Positions 2,605-20,610 of a stretch of DNA of 37,409 nt are shown here, piece by piece (position 1 is the stretch's first letter; each line of letters starts with the position of its first letter). Origin of the DNA: Verrucomicrobiota bacterium (GTDB lineage: Bacteria > Verrucomicrobiota > Verrucomicrobiia > Limisphaerales > CANJSG01). The notes beneath the pieces were generated by a model, which saw only the letters and a list, made by a program, of their open reading frames with translations, was not told the DNA's origin and made no database searches. Both the position numbers and the translations under genes were made by a program. The DNA lies in the NCBI GenBank assembly GCA_947476875.1, contig CANJSG010000012.1:1-37409 (forward strand). Reading direction: 5' to 3'.

Positions 2605-5600
2605 TTAATCTTCGGAAACCATTTCCTTCCCACGAATCTCGCGGAACTGCCTGCTTTGGACAATCGATTCGATGGCGGCGGTTACTCGGTAGTCGCTCCT
2701 CTTCAGCTTGGCCTGCATCTCCGTGATCAACGGGTTGTCGGACAACTGGACGCCCCGCCCGAGCGAATAGCCGAGCAGCTTGCGGCAGAATTGTCTCAGG
2801 AAGGCATCGCGGCGTTGGGTCAGGAGATAGGTCCGCAGGCCTTCGAGTCCGTTGATATTGGAACCGTCCATCACCTTCGTGCGGCTATCGATGGGCCGCC
2901 CGCCAAGGTCGTGGTCACGCAGGCGGCCGATGGCATCGAACGCTTCCAAGGAATAGCCGAACGGGTCGATGCGGCGATGGCAGCCGGCGCACTTCGGATC
3001 GGTGGTGTGCTTCTCCGTCAGTTGGCGAACGCTCAGCGCCTCGGTGGCCTCGTCTTCCGGGAGGCGCGGCACATCTTTCGGCGGGCGCGGCAGCTTCTCG
3101 CCGAGCAGGACCTCGTTGAGCCAGTTGCCCCGCAGGATCGGACTGGTGCGCGAGGCGCCAGATTGTTTGGCGAGCGTCGCCGCCTGTCCGAGCACCCCGC
3201 CACGGCCGAAGAGTTTGACGCCGTCCACCCTTTGCCAACCGGGACCGCTGAAGCCGGGGATCCCGTAGTGGCGGGCCAGGTCGGCGTTCAGGAAGGAATA
3301 GTCGGCGTCGAGGATGTCGAGGACGCGGCCGTCGCGTTGGAAGAGGTCGGTGAAGAAGCGGATCGGCTCCTCATACATCGCGTCGCGCAGCCCGTTGAAG
3401 GTCGGGAAGTGGCGCTCGCTCTTTTCGTTGAGCTCGTTGAAGTCGTAGATGTGCAGCCACGCACAGGCGAACTCGGTCGCCAACCGGCGCACGCGAGCAT
3501 CCTGCAACATCCGCCGCGTCTGGGCGGCGAGCACCTTCGGTTCGTGCAGTGTGCCATTGGCAGCGACGGCGCGGAGTTCGGCATCCGGCGCGGAGGACCA
3601 CAGGAAGTAGCTCAGGCGGGTCGCGAGGTCCCAGTCGTTGACCGGCGCGGCCTTTTCCCCGGGCCCGGGTTTCTCGGCGCGATAAAGGAAAGCCGGCGCC
3701 ACCAGCACCCGGGCCAACGTCAGACGGACCGCGGCCTCGTGTGGCAACTCCTCGGTGCGAAGCTTGCGGTAGAGGTCGCGGAGTTCGTCCTGTTCACCGG
3801 TGGAAAGAGGACGACGATACGCGCCTTCGGCGAACTTCAGCACGGCGTCCAGATGCTTCGGCTGCGTGTCCACGAGCAGCTTCTTGAAGACTTCGGCACG
3901 TTGTTTGATCGGTTCGCGCATCGGCGTGAACGCGCTCGGATCGGCATCCTGGGTGGCGAACTGCCAGAGCTGTTCGAAGGCATCGACGAGTTTGAGCGCG
4001 TCCTGGCTGACGAAGTGCAACTCGGACCAGAGCCGCTCCAACTCGGCTGTCTGGGCATCGTCCAGCATGAGGCGACGGAGAGCGTCGTCCTCCCGGTGGT
4101 AGAGCGTGAGCGTCACGACCTCGTCCACCGGGACGATCTTCGTGTAGCAGAGTGCGGCCGGGAACAGCTGCCGGAACTGGTCCATCGCCGTCTCGATCCG
4201 CTGGCGGGCCGCGCTGCCGCCGGTCACGAGGATCGGCGAATCGGACACGATCGGACGTTCGCCATCGGACCACGTGTTTTTTCCTCCCTGCTCTTTCGAT
4301 GAGCCCGTGGTCAAAACGACCGAGGCCGGCCGGCTCGTGAGCACCTGCATCTGCACGCTGCCCTCGGAACCGGTCTCCTTGTGCAGCGTCGTCGTGGCGA
4401 CGAACTCGCAGCCTTCGAACAATTCCGCCGGCAGCCGCACTTCAATGACCGACGGCGCACGCACGCACAGGCTGGTCGCGGCCACCTTTGCTCCTTCCGG
4501 ATGTTTGCCGAAGAGCACCGGATCAAGGCCACTTCTTGAAGCCGTTCTCCCGGCTGTGGCAGTCGCCTCGTCGCCCCGCCGACTGCGCAGAATGCCGCTG
4601 AGCAGCGGGCCATTCAGCGATGTAAGTTGGCGACGGAGCAAGGCATCGGGCGAATCCTTCGCGAGGCCGGTCGGATTGCTGGCGAGGAGGCTCTGCACTT
4701 CGCGGGCGAGACGCTTCTTCTCGTCATCGTTGGGAGCGGCCTGCCATTTCGAGAGCACGGAACCGACGGGAAGAACGGACTCGGCGGCGCCCGCTTTGTC
4801 GGGTTCGCTGTGGAAGTGCCAGACGCCGGCGTTGCCAAGGGAGTCGGCATGCGGATTGCCGGCAATGATGTTCGGCGAGACGTCCTTCGCCAGATCCCAG
4901 ACCCGGTTGCCGTCGCTCAGGCGCAGGTCAATGGCGGTGAGATCGCAGGAGTGGTTGCCGTCACGCGGGCCAATGACGACCGAGACCACGTCACCGGGTT
5001 GCACGGAGATGTTCTCGGGCGCCCCGAACTTGACCTCCTTCGCGCCCTGGGCGGTGCCGGCCCCGAGGCGTTGGCGGGTCGGACCGCGGCGCAGTTCCAG
5101 CGCCCAAGTGACGCCGTTACCGCACTCCGGATGGGCGTGCTGGACGGTTCCCTCGATCCGCAGCGTCGCCGCCACGGGACTCCGCCAACTCACGAGCACC
5201 CGACGGCTCGGCGCGGGATGCACCGCGACACCGTGGGGCTTCATGTTTCCGGGAATCCGCACGGGTTGATCGGAGGAATTGGCGAGCACGCTCAAGGCAT
5301 CCGCACCGGTCCAGCCTTTGATGAAGTCATAGTTCGGCGAGGTATCCATCCGGCCGGTGATCGGTGATTCGATACGGGTTTCCCCGACGCCGATGCCCAG
5401 ACACCCAAGCCATGCAGCCAGAACGGTGGGTTCGACGCCATGCTTCCCGGCAAGTTGGGAGATGCCGGCGTCATCGACGGCGCCGGTGACCTCAGAGGCG
5501 GCGGCGAGGCACTGCGCGGCAGTCGCGAAGACCTTTTCACGATGGGTCTCCAGCGCGGCGACGGCTGAACGCACGTCGCGCAACGCAAGGTCCGGACGGC

Positions 5601-6846
5601 CCGGAGCGACGAGCCGGGGATTCTCCCACAGCGCGAAGTCGTGCCCATTGCCGTCCCCGGCATCTGACGCCACGAGGTAGAGCGTGACGTCCTTGGCCCC
5701 GGCCGCTGCGGGAATCTTCAGCCGCACTTCCCGCGCTTCGGCCAATGGAGTCACGGGAACCTGCCAGGCTTTCGGACCGTCGCGTTTGCCGATGTGGCCG
5801 ACCTGCGTGAAGCGCCAGAGCGACTGCTGCCATTGGGCAATCGACTTTGACAGAGCGGCCGCGTCGCCCGGCTTTGACCCGCGCCATTGGGCACGGATGG
5901 GATCGAGCACGAGCGAAGGGTTCGTGGCGTCCAGAGCATTCATGACCGCCAATAGATACTTGCCAGAAATGCCTTGTTTGGCGGCGTAGTTCGTCACCAG
6001 AGAGGGATTCGCCCATCCCCATGAATATTTAGCCCGCAGTTCCAGCGTCGCCTCCAGATACTTTTCCAACGGCAGAACACCGCCGTCCTTCGTATCAAAT
6101 TTGATCCCCTGGAGGTTCACCGCGGAACCGCCACCGTTTTCGGTGAAGCGTCCGTAGAAGGCGCGGATCGCGGCGAGACGTTCCTCCGCCCAATCGCGCT
6201 GGGATGTGCTGGGAGAGAAGCCGATTCCGTCCGGCAGCAACACGGCGTGTTCGGCGATGTCTTTGGCGGCGTCGAGATACTTGGTCAGGAGCGACGGGGA
6301 CATGACGAGCGAGTTGCCGACGTTCATGAAGCCTTCGCCGGAAGCGGAATCAGCCGGGAACTCCTTGGCCGGCGCCAGCGACGTGACGCCCGTGAGATCA
6401 CGGAGGGTGTAGGTGTATTCCGCGTTGGAGAGCCGCCTCAGGACAACCGGTCCCGGATCGCCGGCCCGGGCATTGGCCGCGACTTCGAGGGCGGAGTTGA
6501 CCCAACCGGTGAGTTGCTCGCGCTGGGATTTGCTGGGCTGGGGTTTTTCCTTGGGCGGCATTTCGCCGAGGGCCATCTGCTCCAGGACGCCTTGCCAGAC
6601 CTTCGGATGCTTCAGAACTTCCGCCGAGGAAGTGAACCGTTCGAGATCGAGATCGCCCTTCTGTTTCCCGGTCGAATGGCATCCGAGGCAATACTCCTTC
6701 AGCAAAGGCCGAACGGTCTTCTCGAAGGCGCGGCCGTCCGCACCCGCGCCAGACGCGGACACCAGGCTGGCGAACACGAAAGCCGCGCTCAACAGGCATG
6801 GGCGGCAACGGGCACGGATTAATTCAAGGAAAGCGAAGCGCTTCAT
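2605..6846 (-). CDS. Very large DUF1587/DUF1592/DUF1588/DUF1585 cytochrome-type protein (operon 1)
   Basis: A 1413-residue exported protein. The ATG at 6844-6846 is preferred over a GTG two codons upstream. A signal peptide (to about residue 37) is followed by a cytochrome c-like domain with CLGCHS at 53-58 and the family segment ALGEMPPKEKPQP, then a DUF1587 region (about 135-195). The C-terminal third holds the family blocks in order: DUF1595-like (about 998-1058), DUF1592 (about 1070-1200), DUF1588 with a second haem-type motif CAGCH at 1286-1290, and DUF1585 (about 1340-1410). The roughly 800 residues between the DUF1587 and DUF1595 blocks are far longer than the 255 or so in the paralogue at 10719-13298. 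They include a beta-rich, probably carbohydrate-binding-like stretch around 545-690. It leads an operon with DUF1552. A redox role is inferred from the CxxCH motifs; no substrate is known. Confidence 0.9.
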   Translation of the reverse strand: MKRFAFLELIRARCRPCLLSAAFVFASLVSASGAGADGRAFEKTVRPLLKEYCLGCHSTGKQKGDLDLERFTSSAEVLKHPKVWQGVLEQMALGEMPPKEKPQPSKSQREQLTGWVNSALEVAANARAGDPGPVVLRRLSNAEYTYTLRDLTGVTSLAPAKEFPADSASGEGFMNVGNSLVMSPSLLTKYLDAAKDIAEHAVLLPDGIGFSPSTSQRDWAEERLAAIRAFYGRFTENGGGSAVNLQGIKFDTKDGGVLPLEKYLEATLELRAKYSWGWANPSLVTNYAAKQGISGKYLLAVMNALDATNPSLVLDPIRAQWRGSKPGDAAALSKSIAQWQQSLWRFTQVGHIGKRDGPKAWQVPVTPLAEAREVRLKIPAAAGAKDVTLYLVASDAGDGNGHDFALWENPRLVAPGRPDLALRDVRSAVAALETHREKVFATAAQCLAAASEVTGAVDDAGISQLAGKHGVEPTVLAAWLGCLGIGVGETRIESPITGRMDTSPNYDFIKGWTGADALSVLANSSDQPVRIPGNMKPHGVAVHPAPSRRVLVSWRSPVAATLRIEGTVQHAHPECGNGVTWALELRRGPTRQRLGAGTAQGAKEVKFGAPENISVQPGDVVSVVIGPRDGNHSCDLTAIDLRLSDGNRVWDLAKDVSPNIIAGNPHADSLGNAGVWHFHSEPDKAGAAESVLPVGSVLSKWQAAPNDDEKKRLAREVQSLLASNPTGLAKDSPDALLRRQLTSLNGPLLSGILRSRRGDEATATAGRTASRSGLDPVLFGKHPEGAKVAATSLCVRAPSVIEVRLPAELFEGCEFVATTTLHKETGSEGSVQMQVLTSRPASVVLTTGSSKEQGGKNTWSDGERPIVSDSPILVTGGSAARQRIETAMDQFRQLFPAALCYTKIVPVDEVVTLTLYHREDDALRRLMLDDAQTAELERLWSELHFVSQDALKLVDAFEQLWQFATQDADPSAFTPMREPIKQRAEVFKKLLVDTQPKHLDAVLKFAEGAYRRPLSTGEQDELRDLYRKLRTEELPHEAAVRLTLARVLVAPAFLYRAEKPGPGEKAAPVNDWDLATRLSYFLWSSAPDAELRAVAANGTLHEPKVLAAQTRRMLQDARVRRLATEFACAWLHIYDFNELNEKSERHFPTFNGLRDAMYEEPIRFFTDLFQRDGRVLDILDADYSFLNADLARHYGIPGFSGPGWQRVDGVKLFGRGGVLGQAATLAKQSGASRTSPILRGNWLNEVLLGEKLPRPPKDVPRLPEDEATEALSVRQLTEKHTTDPKCAGCHRRIDPFGYSLEAFDAIGRLRDHDLGGRPIDSRTKVMDGSNINGLEGLRTYLLTQRRDAFLRQFCRKLLGYSLGRGVQLSDNPLITEMQAKLKRSDYRVTAAIESIVQSRQFREIRGKEMVSED

Positions 6847-6975
6847 CGGCACAGGTGATTACAGGTGATCCTATCCTTCGTTGCGCGGACAAGACGAGTT
6901 GGAATCGGGGTGAACCCGGAATTTGTTCGAGCTCGTTTCCCAACAAGGAGCAGCGGGCAACCACGGGTCAGATCC

Positions 6976-9346: not shown

Positions 9347-10675
9347 TCAGGCCATTTCCAGCCCGCGCATCGTTCCCGTGGACGACGCGAACTTGTCGGT
9401 CTCGAGACCCATGCGTTGGAGCATGGAGACGAAGAGATTCGGGAGCGGGTAGTTGCGTTCGGTGTCGAAGGCGAGGTGCTGGCCGTGTTTGAAACCACCT
9501 CCGGCGAAGAGAGTCGGCAGGTTCGTGGTCACGTGGGTGTTGGCGTTTCCGAGATTGGAACCGTAGAGGATCATCGTCCGGTCCAGCAGCGGCTCGCCGT
9601 CTTCGCGGACATTCTTCAGCTCGGTGAACAGGTTCGCGAGGAGCTTCATGTGCCATTCGTCGATGGCCTTCAACTGGGAGAGCTTGGCCTCGGAACGCCC
9701 GTGGTGGGACAGGTTGTGATACGCGTCGTTCAGCTTGGTGTCGCCAAGTTCGATGACGGGCGAGTTGACGCTGTCGAGCAGGAGCGCGATGGAGCGGGTC
9801 GAATCGGTCTCGAAGGAAAGCCGCGCGATGTCATACATCAGGCGGACCTTCTCCATGTATTCGCGGGGGCTGGCGGGATCGAGCGGCATCGGCGCCGAGA
9901 CCTTGGGTTTGGGTTTGTTCTCCCATTCGCGGGACATCTTCATGCGTTTCTCCAGCTCGCGCACGCTGGTGAAATACTGGTCGAGCCGGTCGCGGTCATG
10001 CGCCCCGACGTTGCGCTTGAGGTCCTTGGCCTGTCCGGCGACAGCGTCAAGGATGCTCCGGCCCAGTTCAAGTTTCCGGATCTGGCCTTCTGTCTCGGCC
10101 TTGGTGCCCTGCATGAAGAGATGGCGGAACACGTCGGAAGGTTTCTCTTCGCACGGGATCAGCACGCCGGAACCGGTCCACGCGAGGCTGCGCTGTCCCT
10201 GCTGGACGTTGACGCCGAGATTGAGCGACGGGAAACGGGTCAGATGGCCGATGCGTTCGGCGATGTATTGATCGAGCGAGATGGTGTTCTTGAAACCGCC
10301 GCTGCCGGGATGCGGGGCCGCCGTGAGGAAGCAGTTGTCCGCCGGATGGCCGCCGTCGACATCGGGATGGGAGACGCCGCTGAAGACGGTGAAGTCGTTC
10401 CGGTGTTCCTTCAGATTCTGGAGGTAGGGTGAAAGCGCGTAGTCGCGGCCGGCCTGCTTGGGAAAGAACTGGTCGGGCAACAGGCCGAGGTTGTTGCAGA
10501 TGCCGAAGACCCGGCGCGGCTTGTTGTCGGGTTTGCCCGCCGTGACAGCCTTGGCCACCGAAGCGAACGCGGGCGTCATCGAGTCGAGCAACGGAAGCGA
10601 CAGAGCGATGCCGGCGCCACGCAGGAAGCTGCGGCGGGAGAGGGACCGTTGCGTGGCGACGAAGGGAGTGTTCAT
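9347..10675 (-). CDS. DUF1552 family protein, Tat-exported (operon 2)
   Basis: A 442-residue DUF1552 protein with a clear twin-arginine signal ([20 protein letters not shown], residues 13-32) and ATG at 10673-10675. It starts 43 bases after the stop of the 859-residue DUF1592 protein and is followed after 13 bases by the CotH kinase, so all three are probably cotranscribed. Typical family segments are visible: [35 protein letters not shown]-like region with [12 protein letters not shown], and [24 protein letters not shown] near the end. The resemblance of the last segments to DUF1501/sulfatase-like folds is noted but unproven. Only about family-level similarity is visible to the operon 1 paralogue, so this is an old duplication or independent acquisition rather than a recent copy. 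Confidence 0.9.
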
Positions 10676-10718
10676 GGGGTGGAGGGTTTTCTTCGTTTTT
10701 GCGACCGGGCTGCTGCCA

Positions 10719-13298
10719 TCATTTATTCAGGAACAGCCGGCTCTGCACAAGCCCGTGGATCAGGCTGCGGACGCCATAGTGGCTGGAGCCGGCGCGCGCC
10801 AGGACCTGCTCGATCTCGTTCCTGTCACTGAATCGGACGGGGGCGCCCGTGGCATAAACGGCGAGCTGCCGGGCAAGGTTGCGGGCGATCTGTTTCTCGT
10901 CGTCGAGCAGGAGGGATTTCAGTTCGCGCACGTCGGCGAACTTCCGCCCGTCAGGCAGTTCGCCGGACGGATTCACCGGCAACGCGAGACTGAACTCGAA
11001 TTTCTGTCCGCTCTTGGCGAGGCCCTTCTCCGGCGGGCCGGATCCATGCGCCCGGTAGCGCTCGCGGAAGCCGCCCATGACATCAAAGCTCTCGAGGGCG
11101 AAGCCGGCAGGATCGATCTTCGTGTGGCACGCCGCACAGGATTCCTGCGAACGGTGCTGGTCCAGTTGTTGGCGAATTGTGACGGCCCCGCGGATATCGG
11201 GCTCGACCGCCGGGACGCTCGGCGGCGGCGGCGGCGGTTGCTTGCCGAGGATGCGCTCCATGATCCAGGCACCGCGCAGCACGGGCGAGGTCGTGGTGCC
11301 GTTGGCGGAGACCTTGAGAACGCTGGCCTGGGTCATGATTCCACCGCGCGGGCTGTCCTTTGGAAGGTTTACCCGCCTCAACGCGACTCCCTCGAAATGC
11401 GGCAGCCCGTAGTGGACCGCGAGCCGCTCGTTCAACATGGCGAAATCGGACGCGACGATGTTGCGCGCCGGCAGGTCTCCACGGAGCAGTTCGCCGAAGA
11501 AAGCCTGCGTTTCCTCCAGGGCCGATTCGGTCAGAAGATCGTCGAGGTAATAATCGGAGTAGAGCGTGGCGTCGGGCGTGGTGGCCTGGATCCGGCGCAG
11601 GTCGAGCCAGTAGTCGAGGAAGGCGTCGACGAACTGGCGAGCCTTGGGATCGGCCAGCAGGCGGTCGGTCTGGACGCGAAGAACGTCCGGCTGTCGCAGC
11701 TGGCCTTTCGCCGCCAACAACCGGAGTTCGGCATCGGGCGTGGAGTTCCAAAGGAAGAGTGAAAGCCGCGAAGCCAACGCATGGTCGTTGAGTTTGCCGG
11801 GACGCTCCTCGACGCAGATGAACTCCGGCGAGCAGAGCACCGCCGTGTAGCCGGCGATCATGGCGTCGGCGAAGCTGCTGCCGGACTTCAGGGCGCTTTC
11901 GATCACCGGCAGGAAGCGCTTCGACTCCCTGTCGGCATCCGGCCGCCGATAGGCGGCATTGAGGAAGTTGCGGAGAAGACGCTCGGAATCCTTCTTCGGG
12001 TTGCTTGAAACGACATCGACCTTGGTTCCCGTCGTCCCGGATTTCTTCAACGGCAGATCGCCGAAGAGCAGCCTGTGGCCAGCGGTCGGCCACTGTTCGA
12101 AGATCGGACCTTCGACCTCCAGCCACCGGAACACGACGCCGGGTTGGCCGTCGCGTTCCGCAAGCGGATTCTGCCAACGCGATGCGCCCGGTCGCGACCG
12201 GAACAACCGCGCAGGATCCACCCGGACGATCTCACCCGCGAGGAGCCACACGTCGAGTTCGTGGACCGAGGGCTCGGGACTGACATCGAAGGCCCCGAGC
12301 TTGCGCAGGAGGCGCGGCGGCGTCTCGGAATAGACGGTGATCGGCTCGGAGCGGCGGCCTTTGGAAACGTCATCGAGATTGGGGATGAACCACTTGTTGG
12401 TCAGCCCCGGTCCCACCCAGACGGAAAAGCCATTCAGGCGCAGCTTGTAGCGGCCGGCGACGGGCGCCTTGAAGTTGCTGAACTTGGGCTCAAGCGGCTC
12501 ATAGCTTCCCGCCACGACCCCGACGCCTTCGATCTCCCTCAGCGCGGCATTGGTCTTTCCAGCGGAGATTGGACCCTTTCCGGCGCGCACATCGGCCTGG
12601 CCTTCGAATCCAAGCACCGGAAACGTCGCCCGTTCGGGCGCCGTGTTGAAGACGGAGAACTTCATCGGCCCGGTGTAGCTGCGCTGGTCGCGCGCATAAT
12701 GCCGGACGACCGTCGTTTCCGGTTGCTCCACCTTCCCGGCCATCACCTGGCGCAACGCATGGTCGGCCGCGCCCAGATACCTCGCCATTTGCACATAGGA
12801 CACGTCCAAGGCATCGCCGACTTTGTTGAACCGATGGGCCACTCCGTCCTCCGGCAGGGAATCCCGCACCTGCAACCAAGGCGCCTGCAGGAGATCACGC
12901 AGCGCGTTCTCATATTCGTAGCGGTTCAAACGGCGCTGCACGGACCGGCCCTCTTTCGCGACCAGCTTGTCCTCCACCATGTTGATCGAATTCGAAAGCG
13001 TTGCCTTGAAGGCTTCGAGATCCTTGGCGTCGGGCCGGGGCTTCTTCTTGGGCGGCATCTCACCAACGTCCACGCGGTCAAACACGCCGACCCACTTGGT
13101 CAGATCCTTGGGTGAGCCGGCTTCCAGTTTGAGGGCCGTCAGATCAAGCCCGCCCTTCTTGATCTCCCCGTCATGGCACTCGATGCAGTGCTGGTCTACG
13201 AAGCGGGAAACGACCGTGCCGGGGACAGCGGACGCCGTCCACGTCCCCAGCAGAATCGAAGCGGCCCCGGCGAGGAGAATGTGGCGTGTGGACTTCAT
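10719..13298 (-). CDS. DUF1592/DUF1588/DUF1585 cytochrome-type protein (operon 2)
   Basis: An 859-residue exported protein, close to the usual length for this family. The ATG at 13296-13298 opens a signal peptide ([18 protein letters not shown], cut about residue 24). A cytochrome c-like domain carries CIECHD at 38-43 and [12 protein letters not shown]; a DUF1587 region follows (about 120-185; [16 protein letters not shown]). After a beta-rich central region come DUF1595-like (about 440-505; [10 protein letters not shown]), DUF1592 (about 508-640; [19 protein letters not shown]), DUF1588 with CAACH at 721-725, a run of seven prolines just before it, and DUF1585 to the C-terminus (VQSRLFL). 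It heads operon 2. A periplasmic redox or haem-dependent function is inferred only from the CxxCH motifs. Confidence 0.92.
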
Positions 13299-19776: not shown

Positions 19777-20610
19777 CTACTTGAGCCGCCGCTGCAGCGC
19801 TGCGAGCGAGTCCTGGAGCGAATCCACCAGCCGACGGAGAGCCACCACGTCGTCGCCGACCGACGCCGCGCCGGTCGCCTCGACGTGGCGTCGACGGTTC
19901 TCGTCCTCCATTTCCTGCCGGGCCTCTTCCATGCCGCTGACAATCACGCCGATCAGCAGGTTCAGGACGATCATGGTGCCAAGGAGGATGAACGAAACGA
20001 AGTAGGCCACTGTGACGGGCGCCGCGCCCCTGGCCTCGATCTGCGCGCGCATGATGTCCGCCCAGCCTTCCAGCGTGACGACCTGGAACAACGTCAGGCC
20101 CGCCGCTCCGAGCGAACCGAAATGTTCCGGGTCCGTCTTGCCGAAGAGCGACACGCCGAGCACCGCGTAGACGTAGAACAGGACGCTGAGCAGCAGCGCC
20201 ACGTAGCTCATGGAGGGAATGCTCTTCAGGAGGGCACCAACCAGGATCTGGAGGCGCGGCACGGCCGTGATGAGGCGGAGCACCCGGAGCACCCGCGCGA
20301 GCCGCAACACCGCCGCGAACTCCGCCTGAAACGGCAGGAGACACACGGCCACCACCACGAAGTCGAAGATGTTCCACGGGTCATGGAAGAACTTCCACGG
20401 CCGCGAACCATGCACGCCGACGCGGAGGACCAGTTCACCCACGAACAGCCAGAGCACGATCCGGTCGACCAGATGGAGAAATCCCCCGATCCGTTCCATG
20501 ACGGCGGCGCTTGTCTCCAGACCGACGAGCACTCCGGCCAAAAGAATGAGCCCGAGGATGAACCGCTGGAAGATCACGGCGTCAGTCACGCATTTGCAAA
20601 AACTCTGCAT
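19777..20610 (-). CDS. BacNav-type voltage-gated cation channel subunit with Gly-containing filter
   Basis: A 277-residue six-segment channel subunit, the normal size for prokaryotic voltage-gated sodium channels (homotetramers). The ATG at 20608-20610 was chosen; the open codons upstream overlap the hydrolase gene. S4 has Arg103, 106, 109 and 112 at three-residue spacing (RLARVLRVLRLITAVP). The pore region is FGSLGAAGLTLFQVVTLEGW, with filter T179-L180-E181-G182-W183-A184-D185, then S6 (MIVLNLLIGVIVSGMEEA) and an Arg/Glu-rich C-terminus ending in a coiled coil (VALRRLVDSLQDSLAALQRR), as expected for tetramer assembly. Well-known sodium channels have LESW here; the Gly and the downstream Asp resemble calcium channel repeats. 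It lies 47 bases downstream of the serine hydrolase gene. Confidence 0.93.
   Translation of the reverse strand: MQSFCKCVTDAVIFQRFILGLILLAGVLVGLETSAAVMERIGGFLHLVDRIVLWLFVGELVLRVGVHGSRPWKFFHDPWNIFDFVVVAVCLLPFQAEFAAVLRLARVLRVLRLITAVPRLQILVGALLKSIPSMSYVALLLSVLFYVYAVLGVSLFGKTDPEHFGSLGAAGLTLFQVVTLEGWADIMRAQIEARGAAPVTVAYFVSFILLGTMIVLNLLIGVIVSGMEEARQEMEDENRRRHVEATGAASVGDDVVALRRLVDSLQDSLAALQRRLK

Follow-up and report, generated by a model that had tools for sequence, protein, structure and literature searches.

A Verrucomicrobiota voltage-gated channel with the filter TLEGWAD as a candidate prokaryotic calcium channel

A gene for a voltage-gated cation channel with the selectivity filter TLEGWAD lies in the window, the whole stretch of 37,409 nucleotides of Verrucomicrobiota DNA that was analysed. 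Judged from sequence and relatives, its product is a candidate prokaryotic Cav belonging to a small family that carries the key glycine of the proven calcium channel CavMr and probably prefers calcium over sodium. The reading we favour, with a probability of roughly two in three, is a clearly Ca2+-selective, homotetrameric, depolarisation-opened channel of the AnclNav type, the "ancestor-like" group that includes CavMr and NavPp (PMC7041947). As late as 2026, CavMr was described as the sole prokaryotic Cav identified (PMC12919392), and a literature search on Verrucomicrobial channels found nothing relevant.

The channel gene and its filter

The reading frame is intact from its ATG start at position 20610 to 19777, stop codon included, and residues 14-234 of the 277-residue product match Pfam Ion_trans (E 4.8e-47). 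The AlphaFold2 model, based on a 51-sequence alignment, has a mean pLDDT of 89 and resolves into a voltage sensor and pore helices followed by a long S6 and a C-terminal helix, and its best Foldseek matches in the PDB are CavAb, NavMs and NavAb, with TM-scores to the target of 0.73-0.90. The Ion_trans domain and the S1-S6 fold with a re-entrant P loop are those of voltage-gated six-transmembrane tetrameric cation channels (the BacNav superfamily), as are the S4 arginines spaced by three (R103, R106, R109 and R112), the four that the first-pass annotation had counted and that are read directly in the sequence. By likeness to canonical BacNavs, the C-terminal helix may assemble the subunits as a coiled coil. 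The same annotation described the protein as an intact BacNav; frame, fold and gating residues uphold its intactness, but the channel belongs to the distinct AnclNav-type group and should not be taken for a canonical BacNav altered at a single position. It occurs in one copy in the genome (assembly 4.17 Mb, 85.5% complete, with the window as contig 12), no named NCBIfam family was obtained for it, and comparison with its closest relatives gives a dN/dS of about 0.15-0.3, at a dS near saturation.

The filter codons are ACG CTG GAA GGC TGG GCG GAC; the residues of the filter had been given correctly at first pass, while the coordinates 20057-20077 were one base off (Table 1). Glycine at filter position 4 (Gly4) is shared with CavMr-type prokaryotic Cav channels. 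Two further features of that type are absent: position 6 is alanine rather than valine, and the L6 loop has 17 residues and no cysteine instead of being long and disulfide-bearing, a property reported for CavMr and not shown there to be required (PMC10120453). The channel likewise departs from canonical BacNavs in having Gly4 in place of a TLESW filter and in standing outside both the NaChBac-like and the NavAb-like groups of the tree. Throughout its clade L6 lacks cysteine and has 17 residues, or 18 in loci L003 and L065. Other Gly4 channels, such as Saprospiraceae L093, L098 and L131, whose filter is likewise TLEGWAD, and L101 (TLEGWVD), have an L6 of 31-33 residues with a cysteine pair, and the short-loop and long-loop kinds of TLEGWAD channel would allow the effect of the loop to be separated from that of the filter.

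Table 1. Features of the channel gene, in window positions
Feature	Position	Strand	Basis
Channel gene; the 277-aa product has six transmembrane segments and is predicted to form homotetramers	19777..20610	-	Open frame and translation, Pfam, AlphaFold2, PDB fold matches
S4 voltage sensor, residues 99-116	20263..20316	-	Direct reading; helix 99-116 in the AlphaFold2 model
Selectivity filter TLEGWAD, residues 179-185, Gly182 at position 4	20056..20076	-	Direct reading; aligned with relatives and with TLESW of NaChBac, NavCt and NavMs
P2 helix plus short L6 loop, cysteine-free, 17 residues from filter to S6	20005..20055	-	Loop lengths across 120+ homologues
Helix at the C terminus (residues 251-276), following S6; may form a tetramerising coiled coil	19783..19860	-	AlphaFold2 helix; Leu/Val spacing from sequence

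Relatives, filter letters and tree placement

Homologues were counted in 62 of 293 genomes of the window's order (E<=1e-10), in 29 of 388 genomes of the phylum and in 40 of 250 genomes of the family of G585 (E<=1e-30), a family that also takes in the genomes of the named Opitutaceae loci. Relatives in a plasmid collection were all below 42% identity. A further 80 named GTDB loci were added with peptide patterns including VVTLEGW, by which EGW filters are over-represented, so that numbers drawn from them are counts and not frequencies. Once duplicates with identical sequence were removed, the nearest relatives came from 17 further genomes; they are 59-75% identical to the window channel and form with it a clade of 18 distinct Verrucomicrobiota genomes, mostly Opitutaceae. 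Gly4 is invariant in all 18, encoded variously by GGC, GGT, GGG and GGA, and positions 3 and 7 are acidic in every one. The occurrence of orthologues in 18 genomes, the varied glycine codons and the low dN/dS indicate that the Gly4 filter is not a chance string. TLEGWAD is found in eight of these genomes and TLEGWVD, the filter of CavMr letter for letter, in five, with TMEGWTE, TMEGWTD, TMEGWND, TMEGWNE and TLDGWAD once each; position 6 thus varies among A, V, T and N. Two Opitutaceae genomes encode a separate TLESWSM channel beside the Gly4 channel (G763, with L149, TMEGWND, and L168; G834, with L153, TMEGWNE, and L169).

Most channels of the window's own order have TLDNW(A/G/S)D or a similar filter, and a few have TLEDWTD. 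The TLDNW(A/G/S)D filter, with aspartate at the high-field position and asparagine adjacent, marks a large Verrucomicrobiota clade (L004-L027, L039-L041, L157-L160), and no characterised channel with it was found in the literature consulted. Odd filters with a basic residue at position 6, TLDDWRN and TLDDWKF, occur in Akkermansiaceae and Verrucomicrobiaceae (L035, L120, L122, L133, L136) and form a single clade with support 100/97.

A tree of 120 non-redundant homologues was built with the filter columns blanked (231 columns, IQ-TREE, LG+C20 PMSF). The sequences of NaChBac, NavCt and NavMs were taken from PDB alignments; CavMr (ZP_04038264) and NavPp (ZP_01909854), absent from the PDB hits and from the 80 named loci, are not among the rows. 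As proxy for NavPp stands L103, which has the NavPp filter TLEDWTD and comes from Enhygromyxa salina, a myxobacterium that is marine, as is Plesiocystis, the host of NavPp. The window channel falls in a clade of 11 rows (support 100/98) with Gly4 throughout, inside a non-canonical group of 102 rows (100/99) that also holds L103 and leaves out NaChBac, NavCt, NavMs and the Verrucomicrobial TLESWSM channels (100/99). Inside the 102 rows, the branches that relate this clade to other groups lack support (58/60 and 70/54). A tree had been proposed as a check in the first-pass annotation, and its outcome favours the calcium proposal made there: the channel stands apart from proven sodium channels, and its clade is uniformly Gly4. 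The channel fits the description of the AnclNav group (PMC7041947), its link to the CavMr and NavPp lineage running through the L103 proxy. The EGW filter state requires 11 changes on the tree, and a topology with all Gly4 sequences in one clade is rejected (lnL difference 109, p-AU 0.0014, for a group named after the tree was seen); Gly4 filters have several origins within the non-canonical group. One long-branch row, L052 (TMEGWQD), adjoins the NavAb-like group.

Probable calcium preference and its alternatives

Measurements on CavMr and NavPp provide the frame in which the filter can be read. CavMr, with the filter 183-TLEGWVD-189, has Gly4 as a key determinant, a residue common to domains I and III of animal Cav channels (PMC7041947); the first-pass annotation was right about this glycine. 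Its PCa/PNa of 218 falls to 12 in G4S, 7.7 in G4D, 40 in V6T and 144 in D7M, and Val6 is needed for full selectivity, V6T also admitting K+ and Cs+ (PMC7041947). NavPp (TLEDWTD) has a PCa/PNa of 0.31, which D4G raises to 41 despite Thr6 and the full CavMr filter to 215 (PMC7041947). A survey likewise tied glycine at position 4 to calcium selectivity in one-domain channels (PMC10120453). Conversely, NavAb S178G, with TLEGW on a canonical backbone, keeps a PCa/PNa below 0.01 and gains only a preference for Li+ (PMC12919392), so Gly4 alone is insufficient: on the AnclNav backbone it matters, whereas NavAb does not become Ca-selective through it alone.

Calcium selectivity is the best-supported reading of the window channel because of its place in the tree, the clade-wide Gly4 and the CavMr filter in five clade genomes. 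Its own filter differs from that of CavMr at position 6 only, and among the 102 non-canonical homologues positions 4 and 6 pair as the mutants would predict, D4 with T6 in 37 of 42 and G4 with A, V, I or F in 22 of 30; N4 goes with G, A or S in 27 of 30, all of these counts ignoring shared descent. Among sequences of solved structures, human T-type calcium channels score best; their domain I also reads TLEGW, though the score sums several domains. In the mechanism proposed, the four Glu181 residues of a homotetramer would form a ring that binds Ca2+, and Gly182, having no side chain, would leave a wider outer mouth through which hydrated Ca2+ could reach that ring, with Asp185 adding negative charge at the pore entrance; depolarisation would move the S4 arginines, S6 would open and Ca2+ would enter. 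A PCa/PNa well above 1 is expected by analogy, while a full CavMr-like value of about 200 is less certain with Ala6 in place of Val6. The first-pass proposal of calcium rather than sodium selectivity is therefore strengthened by tree and clade and weakened in its premise, as Gly4 alone does not suffice and Val6 is replaced by alanine. Against the calcium reading stand the need for Val6 in CavMr, the short cysteine-free L6, the non-calcium-selective NavAb S178G and the asparagine or threonine at position 6 of some clade members, as well as a literature search that found no recordings of current from any clade member.

A rather unlikely alternative is a divalent-preferring but poorly discriminating channel that would favour Ca2+ over Na+ some 10-50 fold through Gly4, admit K+ and other monovalents with Ala6 and serve a mixed depolarising role. 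Such behaviour is seen where TLEGWTD was created by mutation, CavMr-V6T and NavPp-D4G both showing a PCa/PNa of about 40 and a PK/PNa of 0.7-0.8 (PMC7041947); alanine is smaller and less hydrophobic than valine, and position 6 varies within the clade. Within one clade, however, alanine and valine alternate while all other filter positions stay the same, which suggests that the two are tolerated equivalents; and no measurement of an Ala6 mutant was found, a point against this reading and the calcium-selective one alike.

It is improbable that the protein conducts sodium as other BacNavs do, with Gly4 making no difference to the choice between Na+ and Ca2+. NavAb S178G would be the precedent, and the Na-preferring NavPp belongs to the same broad group, but NavAb has another backbone with Met7, whereas the window channel has Asp7 and lies apart from NavMs and the TLESWSM channels; in the CavMr/NavPp backbone, moreover, replacing Asp4 of NavPp by glycine raises PCa/PNa more than 100-fold. 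The retention of a canonical TLESWSM channel beside the Gly4 channel in two Opitutaceae genomes is also what different tasks for the two channels would predict. That the gene is a non-functional or non-expressed relic is very improbable: no promoter match was obtained in a scan that is weak at 64% GC, and the gene neighbourhood is not conserved, but the frame is intact, all gating residues are present, the predicted fold is confident, dN/dS is far below 1 and the filter codons have changed synonymously.

Host, significance and comparison with known channels

The window channel is nested among Opitutaceae sequences (100/95, then 96/85; near L032, L060, L146 and L154), while its host belongs to the subdivision 3/Limisphaerales order, and the simplest reading would be horizontal transfer from an Opitutaceae-like donor. 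The host's order, and with it the first-pass label "Verrucomicrobial", is borne out by homologues from genomes of that order, which over the compared stretch are identical to named records of "Verrucomicrobia subdivision 3", Limisphaerales and Pedosphaera. A binning artefact was judged unlikely: at the cut-off used, the PQQ-like neighbour has matches in the host's own order only; the serine hydrolase neighbour resembles proteins of that order (58%) about as closely as those of another family of the class (59%); and GC content stays level over the whole contig, which the channel matches in GC and GC3. No conserved neighbours of the channel were found and the neighbourhood is not common to L060-L065, for which reason a functional clue from neighbours was rejected. 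Elsewhere in the window, two PSD/planctomycete cytochrome C proteins, with DUF1592 and related domains, are encoded on the minus strand at 2605-6852 and 9347-13298, the second adjoining a DUF1552 protein, and a protein of the same look (SFLRGMGASLALPLLD) stands two genes upstream of the channel in L060 and L061. The genome encodes FliG, which makes a flagellum probable, and no member of the Na/Ca exchanger family was found in the 85.5% complete assembly. A link to motility was proposed for CavMr by its authors; for the window channel it would be speculation.

The suggestion that the channel extends the set of natural calcium channels survives insofar as it is a candidate prokaryotic Cav, but it is no lone example, Gly4 filters being present in many phyla with more than one origin. 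Tentatively, and at somewhat less than even odds, the Opitutaceae/Limisphaerales clade may represent a second, independently evolved lineage of bacterial calcium channels, with Gly4 and Ala6 and without the L6 disulfide loop, some of whose species also run a sodium channel. If so, distinct voltage-gated Na and Ca currents would exist within bacteria, and the genomes that combine a Gly4 channel with the sodium-type TLESWSM channel would offer a handle on how bacteria use voltage-gated Ca2+ entry. The 18 orthologues, with Gly4 fixed and A, V, T or N at position 6, together with the Asp4 and Asn4 sister channels, would form a natural panel for the choice between Ca2+ and Na+ in homotetramers.

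Among known channels, CavMr of Meiothermus ruber (Shimomura et al. 2020, PMC7041947), compared by its published description, is alike in being a homotetrameric six-transmembrane voltage-gated channel with a TLEGW-x-D filter, Gly4, Asp7 and an AnclNav-type backbone, and differs in Val6 and its long disulfide-bearing L6. NavPp of Plesiocystis pacifica (TLEDWTD) and the Enhygromyxa channel L103, the latter 52% identical to the window channel, fall in the same broad tree group but carry Asp4 and Thr6, and NavPp prefers Na+ and is blocked by Ca2+. The canonical BacNavs NaChBac, NavCt and NavMs (38-39% identity) and NavAb (compared by fold match) share the fold, the S4 arginines, Glu3 and Trp5, but have Ser4 and are split from the window channel by a branch with 100/99 support. 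In domain I of human Cav3.1, Cav3.2 and Cav3.3 (T-type), the filter region QV(V/I)TLEGW(A/V)(D/E)IM is nearly identical to that of the window channel, although there it belongs to one of four different domains of a 24-transmembrane protein.
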